A stretch of DNA of 49,298 nucleotides, from positions 1-49,298 of IMG/VR virus record IMGVR_UViG_3300031256_000002, one strand, 5' to 3'. The first letter of the stretch is position 1, and every line of letters begins with the position of its first letter. Below the pieces are notes generated by a model. It searched no databases and was not told the DNA's origin. It saw only the letters and a program-made list of their open reading frames with translations. Made by a program: the position numbers and the translations under genes. The stretch is from a virus. This document shows, in pieces, positions 5,860-49,011 of this stretch.

Positions 5860-6399
5860 TCACTTTATCTCCGACATTATTAAGATTTTATAAGTATCGT
5901 TCTCAAATAACCATGCATGATTCCCACCGAGAGTAACAGTATATACACCATCAGGAATGTTTTTATAATACTCTGGACTTATGCATAACGGAGGATCTCG
6001 AAATTTGTTCTCGTCATAAAAATCTCTGCGGATTATTTCTGAAACTAGCATTGCAAATGATCTAAAAGACTTTGTTTTTTTATGATCAAGAATTTTTATA
6101 TCAGCTGCTTCTCTCTGCATTTCAAAAAGTTTATATGTACTTGCTGGAAATAAACCTGCACTTGAATCGTCATGCAGTAGAGCAAATTCATTTTTTGCTG
6201 TTTTGTTTGGTTGATAGTCTTTGTATTTGTAGTCTCCTAGTGGTAGTATTACTGCAATCAGTTGTTTTCCGTTTGTTGCTATAGCATGAGGAATATTGTT
6301 GATTTCTTGTACGTTAACATATCGAAAACAGTCTCTGTTAGGATCTTTACTTTTGAATGTTTGTAAAGCTTCATAGGCTTGTTTGGTTATTTTTATCAT
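5860..6399 (-). CDS. hypothetical early protein, possibly sliding-clamp-like fold
   Basis: 179 residues, ATG at 6399 overlapping the previous stop. Features are KITKQAYEALQTF at the start, AIATNGKQLIAVILP near residue 40, and IPDGVYTVTLGGNHAWLFE near the end. The 'AT(N/D)G+.L' element and 'DG.Y.V' ending are weakly reminiscent of phage clamp-domain proteins, but no motif is decisive. It is the longest gene of the first early cluster. Structure prediction would settle the fold. Confidence 0.55.
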   Translation of the reverse strand: MIKITKQAYEALQTFKSKDPNRDCFRYVNVQEINNIPHAIATNGKQLIAVILPLGDYKYKDYQPNKTAKNEFALLHDDSSAGLFPASTYKLFEMQREAADIKILDHKKTKSFRSFAMLVSEIIRRDFYDENKFRDPPLCISPEYYKNIPDGVYTVTLGGNHAWLFENDTYKILIMSEIK

Positions 6400-7287: not shown

Positions 7288-7308
7288 TTTGTTTTATTTT
7301 ACTTCTAT

Positions 7309-7337
7309 AATTTATCATATCTGCAACCAGGAGTCAA
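7309..7337 (-). promoter_or_regulatory. leftward sigma70-type promoter
   Basis: On the minus strand TTGACT (7332-7337) is followed after 17 bp by TAAATT (7309-7314). The -35 box matches the two rightward promoters exactly. The -10 is weaker (four of six). An AGTTGCTTATTTT box ends one base upstream of the -35, the position of an activator or repressor site. Expected start is about 45 bp before the first leftward ATG. Confidence 0.6.
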
Positions 7338-7338
7338 G

Positions 7339-7351
7339 AAAATAAGCAACT
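7339..7351 (+). repeat. AAAATAAGCAACT box 1
   Basis: One of four exact copies in the control region. This one abuts the leftward -35 element, reading away from it, so it is placed to control the leftward promoter. Confidence 0.7.
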
Positions 7352-7598
7352 TTTTTTACTTATTTTTTGCCGACTTTGTTTTTTGCCTATTAACTATAGA
7401 AGAAAACGTGAAAATTTTGTCTTTTTTTGAGCTAATTTGTTGTATTATAAGCAATTAGATGAATATTTTTAGTTGTTTTTAATGATTTACGGTGTATTTG
7501 CTGGAATTGTTAGTTTTTGTGGTTGTAATTTGAAGTTTTTTGTTTTTAGTTTGCTGATTTTGGTATGGTTCTTGCATCATTATGGTTTTGCTTGAACC

Positions 7599-7611
7599 AA
7601 AATAAGCAACT
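7599..7611 (+). repeat. AAAATAAGCAACT box 2
   Basis: Exact copy in the outer left arm of the palindrome. Its mirror partner is at 8057-8069 in inverted orientation. Beyond the box the similarity continues outward to a shared CCATAAT. Confidence 0.75.
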
Positions 7612-7623
7612 GGCAAAATGATT

Positions 7624-7648
7624 TAATTACTTATGCCATAGGGAGTTA
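7624..7648. repeat. 25-bp dyad operator 1
   Basis: TAATTA, c, TTATG, c, CATAG, g, GAGTTA. The family consensus is TAAYTN-n-TTATG-g-CATAA-n-NAGTTA, a nearly perfect dyad. It is 87 bp from dyad 2, the same spacing as between dyads 3 and 4. Confidence 0.7.
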
Positions 7649-7687
7649 GCTGATTTTGGGTATGTTTGTTTTTAGTTAGCGAGGAAG

Positions 7688-7701
7688 AATTATGCATAAT
7701 T
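7688..7701. repeat. AATTATGCATAATT palindrome 1
   Basis: Perfect 14-bp palindrome, one of four identical copies. It lies 10 bp before dyad 2. The core TTATGCATAA is related to the TTATGGCATAA core of the 25-bp dyads, so one protein might bind both with different affinity. Confidence 0.75.
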
Positions 7702-7710
7702 GTATTTTGC

Positions 7711-7735
7711 TAACTTGTTATGGCATAAGAAGTTA
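7711..7735. repeat. 25-bp dyad operator 2
   Basis: TAACTT, g, TTATG, g, CATAA, g, AAGTTA. Apart from single-base spacers it is a perfect dyad and the most symmetrical of the four. Confidence 0.75.
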
Positions 7736-7740
7736 CGTGA

Positions 7741-7754
7741 AATTATGCATAATT
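7741..7754. repeat. AATTATGCATAATT palindrome 2
   Basis: Exact copy, starting 53 bp after palindrome 1. Palindromes 3 and 4 show the same 53-bp spacing. Confidence 0.75.
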
Positions 7755-7853
7755 ATGGGGGGTGTCTTTACTAACCTTACTTGAACTGAAGAAAACTAAG
7801 ATATTCTTTTTTTATATATAATATATATATATTATAGTATATCTCTACCTAGA

Positions 7854-7866
7854 GGGGGGGGGGGGG
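7854..7866 (+). other. run of 13 G
   Basis: An uninterrupted G13 tract lies just right of the AT tract, in an otherwise AT-rich stretch. Its mirror in the other half is a T-rich segment, so it breaks the palindrome. Length is uncertain because homopolymers are often misread. It could form a quadruplex or mark an RNA/DNA transition, but this is unproven. Confidence 0.6.
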
Positions 7867-7913
7867 AGAATTTCCTTTTTCTTTAAGTTAAGGTTAGTTA
7901 AGACGTATGGCAT

Positions 7914-7927
7914 AATTATGCATAATT
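7914..7927. repeat. AATTATGCATAATT palindrome 3
   Basis: Exact copy and mirror partner of palindrome 2 about the centre 7834. Confidence 0.75.
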
Positions 7928-7932
7928 TTAGC

Positions 7933-7957
7933 TAACTCTTTATGGCATAAGGAGTTA
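7933..7957. repeat. 25-bp dyad operator 3
   Basis: TAACTC, t, TTATG, g, CATAA, g, GAGTTA. Mirror partner of dyad 2; both half-sites are perfect complements. Confidence 0.75.
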
Positions 7958-7966
7958 CAAAAATGT

Positions 7967-7980
7967 AATTATGCATAATT
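7967..7980. repeat. AATTATGCATAATT palindrome 4
   Basis: Exact copy and mirror partner of palindrome 1. Confidence 0.75.
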
Positions 7981-8019
7981 GTAGCTTGATAACTAAAAAT
8001 AAATTAACCCAAAGTCACC

Positions 8020-8044
8020 TAATTGCTTATGGTATAATGAGTTA
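8020..8044. repeat. 25-bp dyad operator 4
   Basis: TAATTG, c, TTATG, g, TATAA, t, GAGTTA. The most diverged copy; mirror partner of dyad 1. Confidence 0.65.
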
Positions 8045-8056
8045 CGAGTTTTAAGC

Positions 8057-8069
8057 AGTTGCTTATTTT
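8057..8069 (-). repeat. AAAATAAGCAACT box 3 (inverted)
   Basis: Exact inverted copy in the outer right arm. Together with box 2 it delimits the palindrome. Confidence 0.75.
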
Positions 8070-8268
8070 GATTAACGCGAAACCATAATTGAAATGATCT
8101 GGTTTAGGCTGGTTTGCACTGGTATGAGCTTCTGTCCTAGAGGTTACGCAAATATGCTCTACAACATAGCATAGATCCCCGTAGTGCGATTTTATATCCT
8201 GTTTGGTATAATCTTACGTTTGTGTACTCTAGTTCTCTCACGGGCTTTGGTTGTGCACTGTACGCTAT

Positions 8269-8288
8269 TGTTATGATTTATCACAACA
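8269..8288. promoter_or_regulatory. operator-like dyad TGTTATGATTTATCACAACA
   Basis: TGTT/AACA and TGAT/ATCA half-sites are symmetrical about the central TT. It is two bases from a second dyad with the same TGATTTATCA core, a tandem arrangement typical of repressor sites. Confidence 0.55.
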
Positions 8289-8290
8289 AC

Positions 8291-8306
8291 GTATGATTTA
8301 TCATAC
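8291..8306. promoter_or_regulatory. operator-like dyad GTATGATTTATCATAC
   Basis: A perfect 16-bp dyad (GTATGAT, TT, ATCATAC) adjacent to the preceding one. It is about 230 bp upstream of the rightward -35 element, so direct promoter blocking would need looping; another promoter nearby is not obvious. Confidence 0.55.
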
Positions 8307-8503
8307 ACCCGAGAGGATCAATGTATTGCAAAGTACACTGAACTAATTCTACTACACGTTTGTTAAGTTGTTTTGGTTTGCCTGGCCTTTTCAACCCCAT
8401 GGTTGACGTTGTGTCATTGTGTCATTTTGACCCATACCCGGTATGGAAATCGATCGCGGCCCTGTGGTAAACCCCCCACGCCCATGCTCGAGCAAAATTT
8501 GAA

Positions 8504-33975: not shown

Positions 33976-34178
33976 TCTGATAGCTCCTCTTTGCTTTTGA
34001 AATAATTTCTAATGGTTTGATGGATTTTTTTTTGTAATTCCATATCATCGAAATTATCTTTATCGCCGTAAGTTTCGCAAACAGTTTGCCTATTCTTTTT
34101 ATTATCAAGAAAAACTTTTGATCCGCCACAATCGTAAATATAAAAATTCAAGTTTTCAAATTTATACAAATCTTTCAT
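33972..34178 (-). CDS. small hypothetical protein
   Basis: 68 residues, overlapping both neighbours by four bases. Short beta start (NFYIYDCGGSKVFLDNKKNR) and acidic helical end. No family recognised. Confidence 0.55.
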   Translation of the reverse strand: MKDLYKFENLNFYIYDCGGSKVFLDNKKNRQTVCETYGDKDNFDDMELQKKIHQTIRNYFKSKEELSE

Positions 34179-34708
34179 TCTATAATCTCCTTTAGATCTT
34201 CCAATGTAGTTAAGATCTTGAACTTATGCGGTCCTACCCAAGCTGTTATCTCAATTTGATCTGACAGATAATCGCCTTTGATTTGATACAGTTCGACTAT
34301 CGAAAACGGTAACAATTTCCCACAAGTTGTTTTCATGTGGACATATTTTGGGATTTCGATTTGGCCTATGTTTTTCATAAATACTTTCCTCCTATGGATA
34401 AAAAAACTATTAACAATATCTTTTGATAACCCGGTAAGCTTTCGGATTGCTTTCCAGGATCTAGGTAAAACAACTCCCGGATGGTTCGCGCACCAACGTA
34501 CCAAAGCTGAATAAGTTCTGCGATGATAACCAGTACTACATCCGGGAGTCAAAATCAAACCAGCACGGTTCAGCCAACGACGGATTGTCCGAGATGATGT
34601 TGAAAAGTGTTTAGCCAAAACGTTACAGTTTCGACCAGACTTGTAATACATCTCGACTAACTGTGAAATAGTTAATCTGTTGGTTTCTAAAAAATTCTTT
34701 CTGGACAT
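34175..34708 (-). CDS. HTH DNA-binding protein, candidate regulator
   Basis: 177 residues. LVEMYYKSGRNCNVLAKHFS followed by SSRTIRRWLNRAG is a helix-turn-helix of the resolvase/transposase-IS3-like type (helix, turn, recognition helix ending RWL..AG). A second helical block follows at about 65-105, and a beta-like C terminus. One of few visible DNA-binding domains in the genome, so a candidate to bind operators in the control region; this link is speculative. Confidence 0.55.
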   Translation of the reverse strand: MSRKNFLETNRLTISQLVEMYYKSGRNCNVLAKHFSTSSRTIRRWLNRAGLILTPGCSTGYHRRTYSALVRWCANHPGVVLPRSWKAIRKLTGLSKDIVNSFFIHRRKVFMKNIGQIEIPKYVHMKTTCGKLLPFSIVELYQIKGDYLSDQIEITAWVGPHKFKILTTLEDLKEIIE

Positions 34709-35820: not shown

Positions 35821-37155
35821 TTACTCCTCCTTATAACCTTTCCAATGATACTCTTCGTCTCCGTTTGTTGAAGTCCAGGCTTTTTGTTTGCCATCGCGGA
35901 TGATATGAACTTCCCCAGAACCCACAAGTTCATTGATTGCCTGATTGAGTTCTTGTGCTAATATACCTCGAGATGCAAATGCCATTTGGATTGCTCGACG
36001 TTTTATTTTTCCGCGTTTGCGGATGTACTTCCGTACAGAATCTACCTTTTTTGCGACCTCACCGAAGCCCAAAGTTCCAGTTGTGTCTTTAGCATCTTGC
36101 TGAACAGACTTAATTAGCTTTAACGCATCTTTGTAATCTCTGGGTTCAATCTCATCACCAGGTTCATAGCGCTGAATGCGTAACAGCAACGCAAGTTTCA
36201 GTACATGAGTACCGTCCCGTTCTCGTCCGGGTTGCATAGATCCGTTTTTATGTTTCTCCGCAAAGTTTTTATACCAGCGTTCATGGAGAGTTCTGACTTC
36301 ATCGGATAGTGTATATTCTCCTCGAGCAGTTGCAGCAATCCAGGCTAAACGTTCTTGTAAGTCTTCGGGACTCGGGCCTCCTTCAACAGTATATGGTTGT
36401 GCATAGAATCTAGTCGGTACATCAGAACTAACAAGCAAGATACGCGATAAAAATCCCTGACCGAACGCTTCTTCAGGTACAGATGCCTCCATTCCTTCTT
36501 GAGTTGTAGCCGCAAAAAAAGTCATATAGATGTCTCTGAGCTGTTGTTTTTTTCTCGAAATCGTATACGAGTTATCAGCATCTTTGCAGTCGTATAAGTC
36601 TGTTAGCTTTTGAACTGTTCCCATGTTGTAGTTTTTTTTACCCAAAAATGTAGCCAGCTCAGAAATAATCACCGTAACATTAGAACCATGATCTACTTCA
36701 GTAAGTACTCCATCAAGATCCCGAACGTTTTTTGTTGTAGGTTTCAGAAGCTGATACAAAGCCTCTGGGGTAGCAGAACCTAGTATGATGTTTCTGATTT
36801 TTTTCTTCTCGCGTATAACTGGGTCAGCAATCTTCTCGTGGAACTTCATTAAAATATTCTGTGTTCCCCAGTTCATAGCACTGGACTTGGCGCAAAACGC
36901 AGGAGGAGCAATGATAAACACAAATAAATTGGGATACAAACTCAACGGTCCCCAGTCCAGTTCAACATCGCGCTTGAGTACGGACGAAAGCAAAAACAGC
37001 GCAGTCCAGGCACAGAATTTTGTCGGCGTTAAAAACCCACGAGTAGCTAAAACAAAGTCAGTTACAAACCCTGCTTGTGGAAGGTTCTTGTCCCAAGCTT
37101 CTGCTTCCCAGAACTTGCAGACAGATTTTTCTTTAAACGGTTTAGGTGGTAACAT
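35821..37155 (-). CDS. P-loop ATPase of DUF3987-like type, degenerate Walker A
   Basis: 444 residues. LYPNLFVFIIAPPAFCAKSS occupies the Walker A position but lacks the GK(S/T) core; VTVIISELATFLG is the Walker B-like strand; ITRK-type and MTFFAATTQEG elements follow. The C-terminal 90 residues contain a winged-helix-like part (IKRRAIQMAFASRGILAQEL). DUF3987 proteins act like helicase/primase-helicase components in mobile elements. Here ATP use is doubtful. It overlaps the HAD gene by 14 bp. Confidence 0.55.
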   Translation of the reverse strand: MLPPKPFKEKSVCKFWEAEAWDKNLPQAGFVTDFVLATRGFLTPTKFCAWTALFLLSSVLKRDVELDWGPLSLYPNLFVFIIAPPAFCAKSSAMNWGTQNILMKFHEKIADPVIREKKKIRNIILGSATPEALYQLLKPTTKNVRDLDGVLTEVDHGSNVTVIISELATFLGKKNYNMGTVQKLTDLYDCKDADNSYTISRKKQQLRDIYMTFFAATTQEGMEASVPEEAFGQGFLSRILLVSSDVPTRFYAQPYTVEGGPSPEDLQERLAWIAATARGEYTLSDEVRTLHERWYKNFAEKHKNGSMQPGRERDGTHVLKLALLLRIQRYEPGDEIEPRDYKDALKLIKSVQQDAKDTTGTLGFGEVAKKVDSVRKYIRKRGKIKRRAIQMAFASRGILAQELNQAINELVGSGEVHIIRDGKQKAWTSTNGDEEYHWKGYKEE

Positions 37156-38826: not shown

Positions 38827-39023
38827 TATTTAATCTCCTTTGATAATTCATGACTTTCTGGAATAATAGAATACCATCTAACTTCCAATAATGGTATATG
38901 TCTATTTTGACCGTTTGTTAATCTCATCCACAAAAGAGATTTCCCAAATCTAACTTCATTACATTCAAAACTTTCCATGTACCCATCAAACCATCTTACA
39001 TTTACATTTATTTCTTTCTTCAT
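38826..39023 (-). CDS. small hypothetical protein
   Basis: 65 residues between the polymerase and the 103-residue gene, one-base overlaps at both ends. NVNVRWFDGYMESFECNEVR recalls small beta proteins. It ends HELSKEIK, like its downstream neighbour. Function unknown. Confidence 0.6.
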   Translation of the reverse strand: MKKEINVNVRWFDGYMESFECNEVRFGKSLLWMRLTNGQNRHIPLLEVRWYSIIPESHELSKEIK

Positions 39024-41692
39024 TATTTTATCTCCTTTAATTCACCGAAGCTAAACCCGCAAGAAATATCTACAGGAAAAGAAACCATCTGTCCGTAGAT
39101 GTCTACAGGTTTTTCCATTTCAGTTTTGATAAGTTTAATCAAATCGGTTTTCTCGTCAGGCCAGGCTTCAAACAAAAGCTGATCGTAGATTTGTAAAATC
39201 ATCTGTGACTTGCATCCCCATTTTTCCATTGCGTCTTCAATACGTATCATAGCACGGTTGATAACATGCGCAATGAGTCCTTGAATTGGAGTATTGATCG
39301 CTTGTTTTTTTATGTCAGCATCAGAACCGTATAAGGTTCTAACAAATCCCATAGGTGTTGAGGTTTTACGCTCGGTTAAAGCAATACGCTGCTGTTCGTC
39401 AATCCACGCACGTTGAATCGGATGGGCCTTGAAATACGCAGTATTGATTGCGGTGAAATCCGACAAGGTCATCTTGATATCCGGACATTCGATCAGGATC
39501 TTTTCAAAAATCTCCCTGTCCGAACCACCATACTGTATGCAACCAAACTGGTACGTTTTCATTACCGCACGTTTTTGATCCCAATCCGGATCATCGGGAG
39601 TAATACCAAAAACAGCTTTGGTGTTGATGTCATGGATGTTCAGGTTCTTTTCGACAACTTCAATTAACATAGGATCTTTGGTGACATACGCTAGGGCAAT
39701 GAACTCTGCGTTTTTGTAGTCTGCCGAAACAAACTCAAACCCAGGTTCCGGAACAAATGCATCACGTAAAGACTTATCACGTTTTTTCGGCAGTGTTCCC
39801 AAGTTTGGTTTTGAAAACGCTGGCCGACCAGTAGTAGTGCCGATTAAGTTTATACTGCAATGAATCCGGCCATCACGACGGATCCATGAACTCAGTCCGG
39901 AATAATTTGAAATCAACGTGGCGATTCTGGTATGTTCAGTATACAAACTCAACCAAGCAAGTACAGAATTTATCTGCTTAATTTCGGTTTGGAACGTTGT
40001 GTTGTTTTTGTTTTTCAATTGCGCTATAGTTTTGAGTCGTTTGTTTAGATGATTTCGGTATGACATCAGATTTTGTTCATCAGTCTTTTGGTCTTTGGTT
40101 GTTTTTGTTTTACGTCCCTTAAATCCGTGTGGAATATATAACGGTTTGGTCTGTGATACTTTCACTTGTTCGATTAAATCTTGATGACACTTTGCTTTGA
40201 ATGCTTTTAAAGCTTGTTTAGGTTTGTTTGCTTTGTTGAGTTCAGCGATTTTCAATTCTCTAGCACGAAGCTTTGCTTTTGCAGTTACAAACTTCGATTC
40301 TTCAGAAGCAAACAAAAACAATCTAAGATCCGCAGCAGAAGCAAAGTTGAAACCGGCCGGGAGGTTACCAGTAGATCGTAATTTGATTTCAAGTTCATCT
40401 AAAATAGTTTGTTTTTTAGCAACCCACGCTCGGAGCTTCTTTTTGTCCAGTCTAATCCCACGTAACATCATGCGCACAAAAGGTTTAATGACTTTCAATC
40501 GTTCGTTATAATATAAATCTTCTAAACCAAGTTCTTTCAGATCTTCAAGTAAAGCTGGCAAAGCACGGAACAAAATCGTACAGTCGTCAAGGTTGTATGT
40601 GCGTAATTCCTCATCCGAAAGATTTATTGTAGAAACTTTTTTGTTCTTTAACGTACCCTTGTGATATGCGACATCCGCACATGTCGAGCCAATAAAACCT
40701 AAATTATGCGGGAGTTCCGGATTGATGACGTGGTGCAAAATCATTATATCGTGCATGATGTTGTCAAAATTCACCGAAATCCCTCGGTTTTCCAGTACAA
40801 ATGTATCAAATGCAGCATTTTGAAACAACAATGGATGTGTTGTAAGCAGATGTGAAAGTTTGTCTTTCGTTGATTGCAAGTTATCACCAAGCACATCGAC
40901 TCCGTATTGAGACAAAAACGGCACACAAGCAGCATTATATGTGTTGTTTGCAAGACCTGTACATATTATATCTGCTGTTGACTGATCAAAACCTCCACTA
41001 CCTTTGTTTGTTGTTTCAATGTCTACAGCTAACGGTGATCCATGTGGGAATAAACCAAGCACGTCCGGATTGTTTGTGATCTGATACTGTTTTTTTGGAT
41101 ACACTTCACGACCGCCATCAGAGATACGTTTGATTTTGGCTCCGTCGGCAGCCCAAACCGCGAACGTTTGTGGGTTGTGCTGGTTGTAACCCAAATACGA
41201 CGGATGAAATGTAGGAATCACAACCAACTTTAAACCATGTCCGGAGTAATCGTATACACTACCACGGGTTTGTAAGATCCCATCAGAGTCCGGAAAAAAT
41301 ACCTTCAACGCAGTATCACCGAGCACTGCTATGGTTTTGCATTGTGCTGTAACGTATGTAAGTTCTTCCCAAAAACCATCAGAGCAACATTGCATTGCTG
41401 TTTGTGCGTCACAGGATAGCAAGTCGTTTGCTTTCCGACGAGTATCCGGAGGTTTACAACCGAGCACGTTCATGACATAGCATTGATGTCGAGCAATTCC
41501 AGATTGTGCAAGCCAAACGTTCAAGAACTTCCCGGCCATGCCAACAAACGGACGACCTTCCAAAGCTTCTGATCGTCCCGGAGCTTCGCCAACAAGCACG
41601 ATCTTGGGATTTTCTGGACCCTCGCCAGCCACACGGCGGGAAGTACATAACGGACAGGTAGAGCATTTCGATTTCTTACGGGTATATCTCAT
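39023..41692 (-). CDS. fusion of uracil-DNA glycosylase and family A DNA polymerase
   Basis: 889 residues, ATG overlapping the upstream stop. Residues 28-185: family 4-like uracil-DNA glycosylase with VGEAPGRSE (35-42), GRPFVGMAGKFLN, MNVLGCKPP and HPSYL; Cys10, 13 and 16 plus later Cys could hold a 4Fe-4S cluster. Residues 220-385: 3'-5' exonuclease with DIETT, QNAAFD and YNLDD. Residues 390-889: polymerase with motif A DYKNAE (Asp658), motif B KTYQFGCIQYG, and motif C IYDQ (Asp837) instead of VHDE. This is the replicative polymerase; the glycosylase part probably screens for uracil. Confidence 0.85.
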   Translation of the reverse strand: MRYTRKKSKCSTCPLCTSRRVAGEGPENPKIVLVGEAPGRSEALEGRPFVGMAGKFLNVWLAQSGIARHQCYVMNVLGCKPPDTRRKANDLLSCDAQTAMQCCSDGFWEELTYVTAQCKTIAVLGDTALKVFFPDSDGILQTRGSVYDYSGHGLKLVVIPTFHPSYLGYNQHNPQTFAVWAADGAKIKRISDGGREVYPKKQYQITNNPDVLGLFPHGSPLAVDIETTNKGSGGFDQSTADIICTGLANNTYNAACVPFLSQYGVDVLGDNLQSTKDKLSHLLTTHPLLFQNAAFDTFVLENRGISVNFDNIMHDIMILHHVINPELPHNLGFIGSTCADVAYHKGTLKNKKVSTINLSDEELRTYNLDDCTILFRALPALLEDLKELGLEDLYYNERLKVIKPFVRMMLRGIRLDKKKLRAWVAKKQTILDELEIKLRSTGNLPAGFNFASAADLRLFLFASEESKFVTAKAKLRARELKIAELNKANKPKQALKAFKAKCHQDLIEQVKVSQTKPLYIPHGFKGRKTKTTKDQKTDEQNLMSYRNHLNKRLKTIAQLKNKNNTTFQTEIKQINSVLAWLSLYTEHTRIATLISNYSGLSSWIRRDGRIHCSINLIGTTTGRPAFSKPNLGTLPKKRDKSLRDAFVPEPGFEFVSADYKNAEFIALAYVTKDPMLIEVVEKNLNIHDINTKAVFGITPDDPDWDQKRAVMKTYQFGCIQYGGSDREIFEKILIECPDIKMTLSDFTAINTAYFKAHPIQRAWIDEQQRIALTERKTSTPMGFVRTLYGSDADIKKQAINTPIQGLIAHVINRAMIRIEDAMEKWGCKSQMILQIYDQLLFEAWPDEKTDLIKLIKTEMEKPVDIYGQMVSFPVDISCGFSFGELKEIK

Positions 41693-42605: not shown

Positions 42606-43162
42606 TATTTACCTCCATGGATTTTTTCTGCAAACATTGATTCTCCAGGCATCAAAACATTCCAGATTAGTTTTGATCGCTTGAAGAAATCAACAACTAC
42701 CGAATCAGTAAAGCTTGATAAATCAAGATACAGAAACGGTACTTTCGGTTCAGTGATAATTGCCGGTTCGACATGCGTTTGCGGGGTATACCAAAGTTGT
42801 TGGACCTGAAATGGAACCCATTTAGTCCCGGTTAGTTTGATAACCAAATGATCAACCATACTGTACCATGATCGGTAGCCAAAATCTGCTGGCATTTCAG
42901 CAATAATAACATGATGTTGATCACGAAGCGGTTTCAACAAACCTATCATTGTTGAATCTGTCGGAAGCTTTGAGCCGGTGATCAGAACATCTGGCTTGAG
43001 TTTCCGAGCAACGCTTGAACCATGCCCGCGTAAATCGAACAAAGCCCCCGCGATTTGATCAGTAGATAACTTCGGTGCGTTGATGTCGATATGGTATATC
43101 GGTGATCCTGCCAAAAGCCCTTGTTTGATGTTGGTATATGTGATTGTTATTGGTTTGCTCAT
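42605..43162 (-). CDS. hypothetical alpha/beta protein
   Basis: 185 residues. Alternating strands and helices: IYHIDINAPKLSTDQIAGAL, KPDVLITGSK, LLKPLRDQHHVIIAEMPADF, MVDHLVIKL. The arrangement vaguely recalls the second half of QueE-type radical SAM proteins, but no CxxxCxxC motif is present and no other queuosine gene is seen. I regard it as unknown. Confidence 0.55.
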   Translation of the reverse strand: MSKPITITYTNIKQGLLAGSPIYHIDINAPKLSTDQIAGALFDLRGHGSSVARKLKPDVLITGSKLPTDSTMIGLLKPLRDQHHVIIAEMPADFGYRSWYSMVDHLVIKLTGTKWVPFQVQQLWYTPQTHVEPAIITEPKVPFLYLDLSSFTDSVVVDFFKRSKLIWNVLMPGESMFAEKIHGGK

Positions 43163-43329
43163 TGTGCAGGATCCTCTTTACGTGTTGCATTTAGATATGT
43201 GGCTTTTTCTTTCTGCAACACAGACATTGCCATTTCGATCATGCCTAATATTTCTACATTAGTACCTGTTATATTTGTAGATATACCAATTTTATTATGG
43301 CCTTCTTTAAGTTCGATTAATAATTTCAT
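43159..43329 (-). CDS. small hypothetical protein
   Basis: 56 residues from ATG 43329 behind GGAGG. Beta start (KLLIELKEGHNKIGISTNIT) and helical end with MIEMAMSVLQKEKATYL. Overlaps both neighbours by four bases. No family recognised. Confidence 0.55.
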   Translation of the reverse strand: MKLLIELKEGHNKIGISTNITGTNVEILGMIEMAMSVLQKEKATYLNATRKEDPAQ

Positions 43330-48933: not shown

Positions 48934-48940
48934 ATAAAAT

Positions 48941-49011
48941 GGCAAGTGACCGGATTTGAACCGGCGCTTCCCGAATCACCATCAGAGCTCTACCGCTGAG
49001 CTACACTTGCC
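48941..49011 (-). tRNA. tRNA-His-like gene (GTG), unusual anticodon arm
   Basis: An eight-pair acceptor GGCAAGTG/CACTTGCC, with the extra G(-1):C73 pair of tRNA-His, TA at 8-9, D stem GCTC/GAGC with loop AGCGGTA, and T arm GCCGG TTCAAAT CCGGT. The stem TCTGA/TCGGG encloses TGGTGAT, giving anticodon GTG, but position 33 is G instead of U and one base is missing around 26-27. Possibly decaying or specialised. CCA is not encoded. Confidence 0.6.

Follow-up and report, generated by a model that had tools for sequence, protein, structure and literature searches.

A large mirrored palindrome on the weakest duplex of a tailed-phage genome is a likely bidirectional replication origin

The window analysed here, a whole IMG/VR virus record of 49 kb (49,298 nucleotides), contains a 511-bp element that, judged from its anatomy and conservation, is likely to be the site from which a tailed phage with a circular map replicates its DNA in both directions. 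The window carries a 127-bp terminal repeat and therefore maps as a circle. Its protein set includes a terminase, an SU10-type portal, a family A DNA polymerase fused to a uracil-DNA glycosylase (UDG-fused PolA), a DUF3987 protein, Sak4, and a PD-(D/E)XK nuclease. Protein scans placed the polymerase gene, part of the replication module, at 39023-41692 on the minus strand. The uracil-DNA glycosylase domain is an N-terminal fusion that is widespread across this phage assemblage. The genes diverge between 7257 (minus) and 8595 (plus) and converge near 33.2 kb. A search of the phage collection found no DNA relatives of the window.

The element lies between the divergent gene blocks, as an earlier sequence-only reading had stated, and consists of two 201-nucleotide arms, at 7579-7779 on the plus strand and 7889-8089 on the minus strand. 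The arms are complementary at 152 of 201 positions (76%), ungapped and with no indels, close to the 77% over 135 positions estimated before. The mirror sum of 15668 and the centre at 7834 had been given exactly. The description of the full 511 bp as palindromic holds for the arms but not for the core between them (7780-7888), 109 bp that are not palindromic in the mirror comparison; with the core included, 163-164 of 255 positions (64%) match. The ungapped palindrome score was 103, whereas the maximum in 1000 shuffles of positions 7300-8400 was 19, a value also never exceeded in dinucleotide shuffles of the whole genome. When every centre in the window is compared over 511 bp, the mirror match here exceeds the mean by 13 standard deviations, and the next centre has 103 matches. 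Matches are found in 66 of 78 positions inside repeated elements (85%) and in 86 of 123 spacer positions (70%), compared with a mean of 34 and a maximum of 53 for the spacers after shuffling.

Two types of repeated element, both themselves palindromic, are arranged in the mirrored order A-B-A-B / B-A-B-A. The 25-mer A element, TAACTNNTTATGNCATAANNAGTTA, starts at 7624, 7711, 7933, and 8020 (0.01 occurrences expected), with the copies A1 (TAATTACTTATGCCATAGGGAGTTA, itself palindromic, 7624-7648, mirrored by A4), A2 (TAACTTGTTATGGCATAAGAAGTTA, 7711-7735), A3 (TAACTCTTTATGGCATAAGGAGTTA, 7933-7957), and A4 (TAATTGCTTATGGTATAATGAGTTA, 8020-8044). The B element, AATTATGCATAATT, is a perfect 14-bp palindrome present at 7688-7701 (B1), 7741-7754 (B2), 7914-7927 (B3), and 7967-7980 (B4). 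Mirror partners had been claimed for all repeated elements, and we found every one at its exact position. The element thus has what is expected of an origin, arrayed initiator-like sites (four A and four B in mirror order) beside an unwinding element. A degenerate fifth A-like copy lies outside the palindrome and lacks a mirror partner (7433-7457). The sequence AAAATAAGCAACT also has an extra copy outside the palindrome, at 7339-7351, in addition to those at 7599-7611 and, inverted, 8057-8069. The doubled B element did not occur in IMG/VR. A search for DnaA boxes (TTATNCACA) within 400 bp found none in the window and one each in the phages vir526 and ctLwi270, and host DnaA boxes were therefore rejected as a general component. 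The box in ctLwi270 (TTATCCACA, at about 35926-35934) is perfect and lies within the palindrome core, which is not general in the group.

We calculated duplex stability by the nearest-neighbour method for 50-bp spans over the whole genome. The weakest span coincides with a TA tract at 7792-7842 (dG -44.6, z 4.7), the presumed DNA unwinding element, and is 18 bp away from the centre of the palindrome. The melting-prone centre proposed earlier is hence the genome-wide minimum of duplex stability. A run of 13 G on the plus strand (7854-7866) adjoins the TA tract, and in several relatives, too, the TA tract is bordered by a C- or G-rich stretch. In T7, the same stability measure placed the two weakest 50-bp duplexes at 452, at the phiOL promoter, and at 5962, just past phi1.1A/B, respectively in the secondary and primary origin regions of this phage. 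This is a fair check of the measure, and it suggests that looking for the weakest duplex may help to find phage origins. An analysis of GC skew near 7834 had also been suggested. The skew minimum is 2.3 kb from the palindrome and the maximum is near the convergence point, and the intergenic skew flips too, but the signal is inseparable from transcription because both sides are transcribed away from the site. With the same confounding, the minimum lies within 2.4 kb of the site in the window, vir526, ctLwi270, G008, G015, G025, and G023.

Is the layout kept in other phages? Scans of IMG/VR with single proteins gave no match, and an alignment with vir526 was needed to retrieve polymerase relatives. 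We took these from IMG/VR and GenBank and scanned them blind for palindromes. In this de novo scan the top palindrome of the genome surrounds a TA-rich tract in ctLwi270, G008, G012, and G018, and also in G011, G025, Microcystis phage Mel-JY34, ctMlz233, G026, G027, a Desulfofustis phage, G036, and G024. These phages are distant relatives with the same UDG-fused PolA, and their arm sequences are unrelated between lineages. Their palindromes coincide with transcription divergence, and in at least 12 of the genomes the weakest duplex is no more than 25 bp from the palindrome centre. G011 and G025, whose genomes are 79% identical, have tandem 11-bp TCTCGGGTATC iterons in inverted arrays flanking the TA tract, an arrangement with the textbook look of initiator sites. 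The nearest annotated phage is vir526, with a terminase and a polymerase 34-37% identical to those of the window. It has its own inverted repeat in the same gap (69-nucleotide arms, 77%), and its TA tract is located 320 bp from that repeat, inside a second small inverted repeat. That the layout keeps reappearing at divergence points in unrelated sequence, and for the most part on the weakest duplex, requires selection. This agrees with the sequence-only reading, which held that selection acts on geometry and that relatives lacking the symmetry would speak against an origin; palindromes of unrelated sequence were found in the relatives.

We then quantified the mutual inversion of the DNA on either side of the weakest duplex of each genome and compared it with random positions in the same genome. 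There was one predetermined position per genome and no search over places, and p<0.01 was scored as positive. By this criterion, 16 of 25 dereplicated DUF3987-encoding records were positive, against 2 of 15 among the polymerase relatives that lack DUF3987 (Fisher p=0.003, for records that are not independent, as they partly cluster on the polymerase tree). Most positives belong to one DUF3987-bearing clade of this tree, and the window and vir526 are placed elsewhere with uncertain support. Part of the tested set was predicted from DUF3987 before inspection. Of the phages with DUF3987 that were added once the association had emerged, clear positives were G026, G027, Tiera, and the Desulfofustis phage. 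In the same added set, Kuura gave a weaker signal (p=0.015) and was counted among the 9 of 25 negatives, and 119X/PaP2, AeroP5, VS-ABTNL-3, G028, G029, G031, and G035 were misses. Lambda, T7, and P22 were negative. The palindromes of G013, G015, and ctSAF950 are shorter, failed the single-position test, and were excluded from the positives; the records of EBPR podovirus 3 and G033 are incomplete and uninformative. We rejected DUF3987 as an obligatory partner, the palindrome being present without it in G024 and G036. With 9 of 25 carriers negative and 2 of 15 non-carriers positive, DUF3987 is not sufficient, nor is it needed.

The DUF3987 protein of the window (PF13148; 35821-37155, minus strand) was characterized by profile, structure model, and fold matches as an MCM-like AAA+ protein with a C-terminal winged helix. 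The model has a pLDDT of 82.7, and its best 50 PDB fold matches in Foldseek are all MCM helicases (E 1e-11 to 2e-8), with a TM score of about 0.45. The Walker A residue K90 and residues E166, R238, and R313 are invariant or nearly so. The sequence match to MCM was not significant (MCM4_WHD, E 0.13 in one member; 3f8t, E 1.0), and we therefore call the protein MCM-like by fold and not a member of the MCM family. DUF3987 is uncharacterised and has been predicted to be a replicative helicase of mobile elements, with the winged helix suggested to recognize the origin (Kazlauskas 2018, PMC5862659; PICMI satellites, PMC10803314). The window protein is of the same Pfam family, but it stands alone, without a fused primase, and is associated with a specific architecture of the presumed origin. 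It is a candidate helicase and a possible origin-recognition protein. The sequence-only reading had named two other candidate binders, neither of which is supported: a sub-threshold HTH hit was all that the protein encoded at 34175-34708 gave, and that at 46980-47216 matches nothing. Its proposal of a bidirectional origin is otherwise largely supported, with the symmetry, melting-prone centre, and divergence point confirmed and the geometry conserved in distant relatives.

The main rival to an origin is a pure promoter/operator region, in which two early promoters face apart, each with the same set of operators, and the TA tract is promoter DNA. We consider this improbable, although it accounts for several features. 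The site is where both gene blocks diverge, the palindromic 14- and 25-bp sites resemble operators bound by dimers, and the same operator set at both promoters would by itself give an inverted arrangement. However, operators need no symmetry axis on the weakest duplex of the genome, the arms stop 322 and 506 bp short of the first start codons, and sigma-70-like matches are not in excess (8 versus 6.5 in shuffles). Moreover, a separate palindromic motif resembling TATGATTTATCATA is present near the starts of both gene blocks and outside the large palindrome, at 7306-7319 and within 8272-8305 (8272-8283 and 8292-8305), and likely represents promoter/operator elements. Origin and transcription-control functions may share the site.

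Large palindromes are also typical of telomere resolution sites, and the element could be imagined to process DNA as a protelomerase site with hairpin telomeres or as a resolution, partition (parS-like), or packaging site. This is very unlikely: sites of telomere resolution continue the palindrome through their centre, the scanned window proteins include no protelomerase, ParB, or recombinase, and the genome maps as a circle, given its 127-bp terminal repeat. A protelomerase site in particular was rejected, as the palindrome is not continuous through the central 109 bp. Least probable of all is that a regulatory segment was duplicated in inverted orientation and left a remnant with no present function, a history that would explain why mirror identity runs through the spacers but not why the A and B elements are better conserved than the spacers or why relatives keep the layout with unrelated sequence at divergence points, mostly on the weakest duplex.

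If the element is a bidirectional origin, a DNA-binding protein of the phage would occupy the inverted arrays, and the two protein complexes facing each other across the TA tract would melt it. Two copies of the MCM-like DUF3987 helicase could then be loaded facing opposite ways. Forks would thus leave in both directions, each travelling the same way as transcription, and would meet near where the genes converge, at about 33.2 kb. Such paired loading is a further step of interpretation that we consider probable. The sites might be read by the winged helix of DUF3987 or by a separate small protein, and each lineage would have its own site sequence, such that the letters change and the geometry stays.

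On the best reading, the presumed origin would work in the manner of OriS/OriL of herpesviruses or of the ORB origins of archaea. HSV OriL is sited between divergent genes. OriS and OriL are palindromic, with inverted UL9 boxes flanking an AT-rich spacer, in a genome that circularises after infection (PMC12543377). They share with the window the palindromic form and the inverted site arrays about an AT-rich spacer, and also a viral initiator and a circularising genome, which are presumed for the window. The HSV array is much shorter and works with the SF2 helicase OBP, whereas the window has 200-bp arms and an AAA+ MCM-like helicase candidate, and the window proteins scanned include no homologue of the UL9-like SF2 helicase, nor are the sequences homologous. 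In archaeal Orc1/Cdc6 origins, ORB elements in inverted orientation flank an AT-rich unwinding element, and an MCM-type helicase is loaded. Inverted sites flanking an unwinding element and an MCM-type helicase, whose loading in the window is presumed, are common to both systems; the differences are a phage genome, unrelated site sequences, and no Orc1/Cdc6 among the scanned proteins. The iteron origins of lambda and P22 (O protein) and of the satellite PLE (RepA, PMC7145576) likewise have repeated initiator sites beside an AT-rich stretch. Unlike the mirrored arrays of the window, the lambda iterons form a single array inside gene O, and lambda and P22 have no palindrome at the weakest duplex.

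The sequence-only reading had called the origin type unrecognised. We found no description of a tailed-phage origin of this layout in the literature searched, the coverage of which was incomplete, although the layout itself is familiar from the herpesvirus and archaeal origins. We tentatively raise the possibility, which we consider less likely than not, of a widespread and unrecognised class of tailed-phage origins, in which large symmetric palindromes on the weakest duplex would serve two DUF3987 helicases head-to-head, as an independent counterpart in bacterial viruses of archaeal and eukaryotic double-hexamer loading. Where transcription diverges, a palindrome centred on the weakest duplex provides a sequence-independent signature for locating presumed origins in genomes of uncultured phages. 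It links the presumed origin to a helicase family of uncharacterised role, DUF3987, and makes bidirectional phage initiation by an MCM-like helicase directly testable. Experiments may be possible because some relatives, such as Microcystis phage Mel-JY34 and Polaromonas phage Tiera, are recorded with named bacterial hosts.

A few observations concern hosts and gene content. A 3-kb contig of a Bacteroidia MAG (JANYKW010000040.1) encodes a polymerase 35% identical to that of the window, a possible hint of the host if the binning is right. The genome of vir526, whose labelled host is Methanomicrobiales, has groS (10 kDa chaperonin) annotated at 42826-43182; given this gene and the bacterial hosts recorded for several relatives, the host label may deserve a check. 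The sole tRNA found in the window genome is a tRNA-His at 48940-49011.
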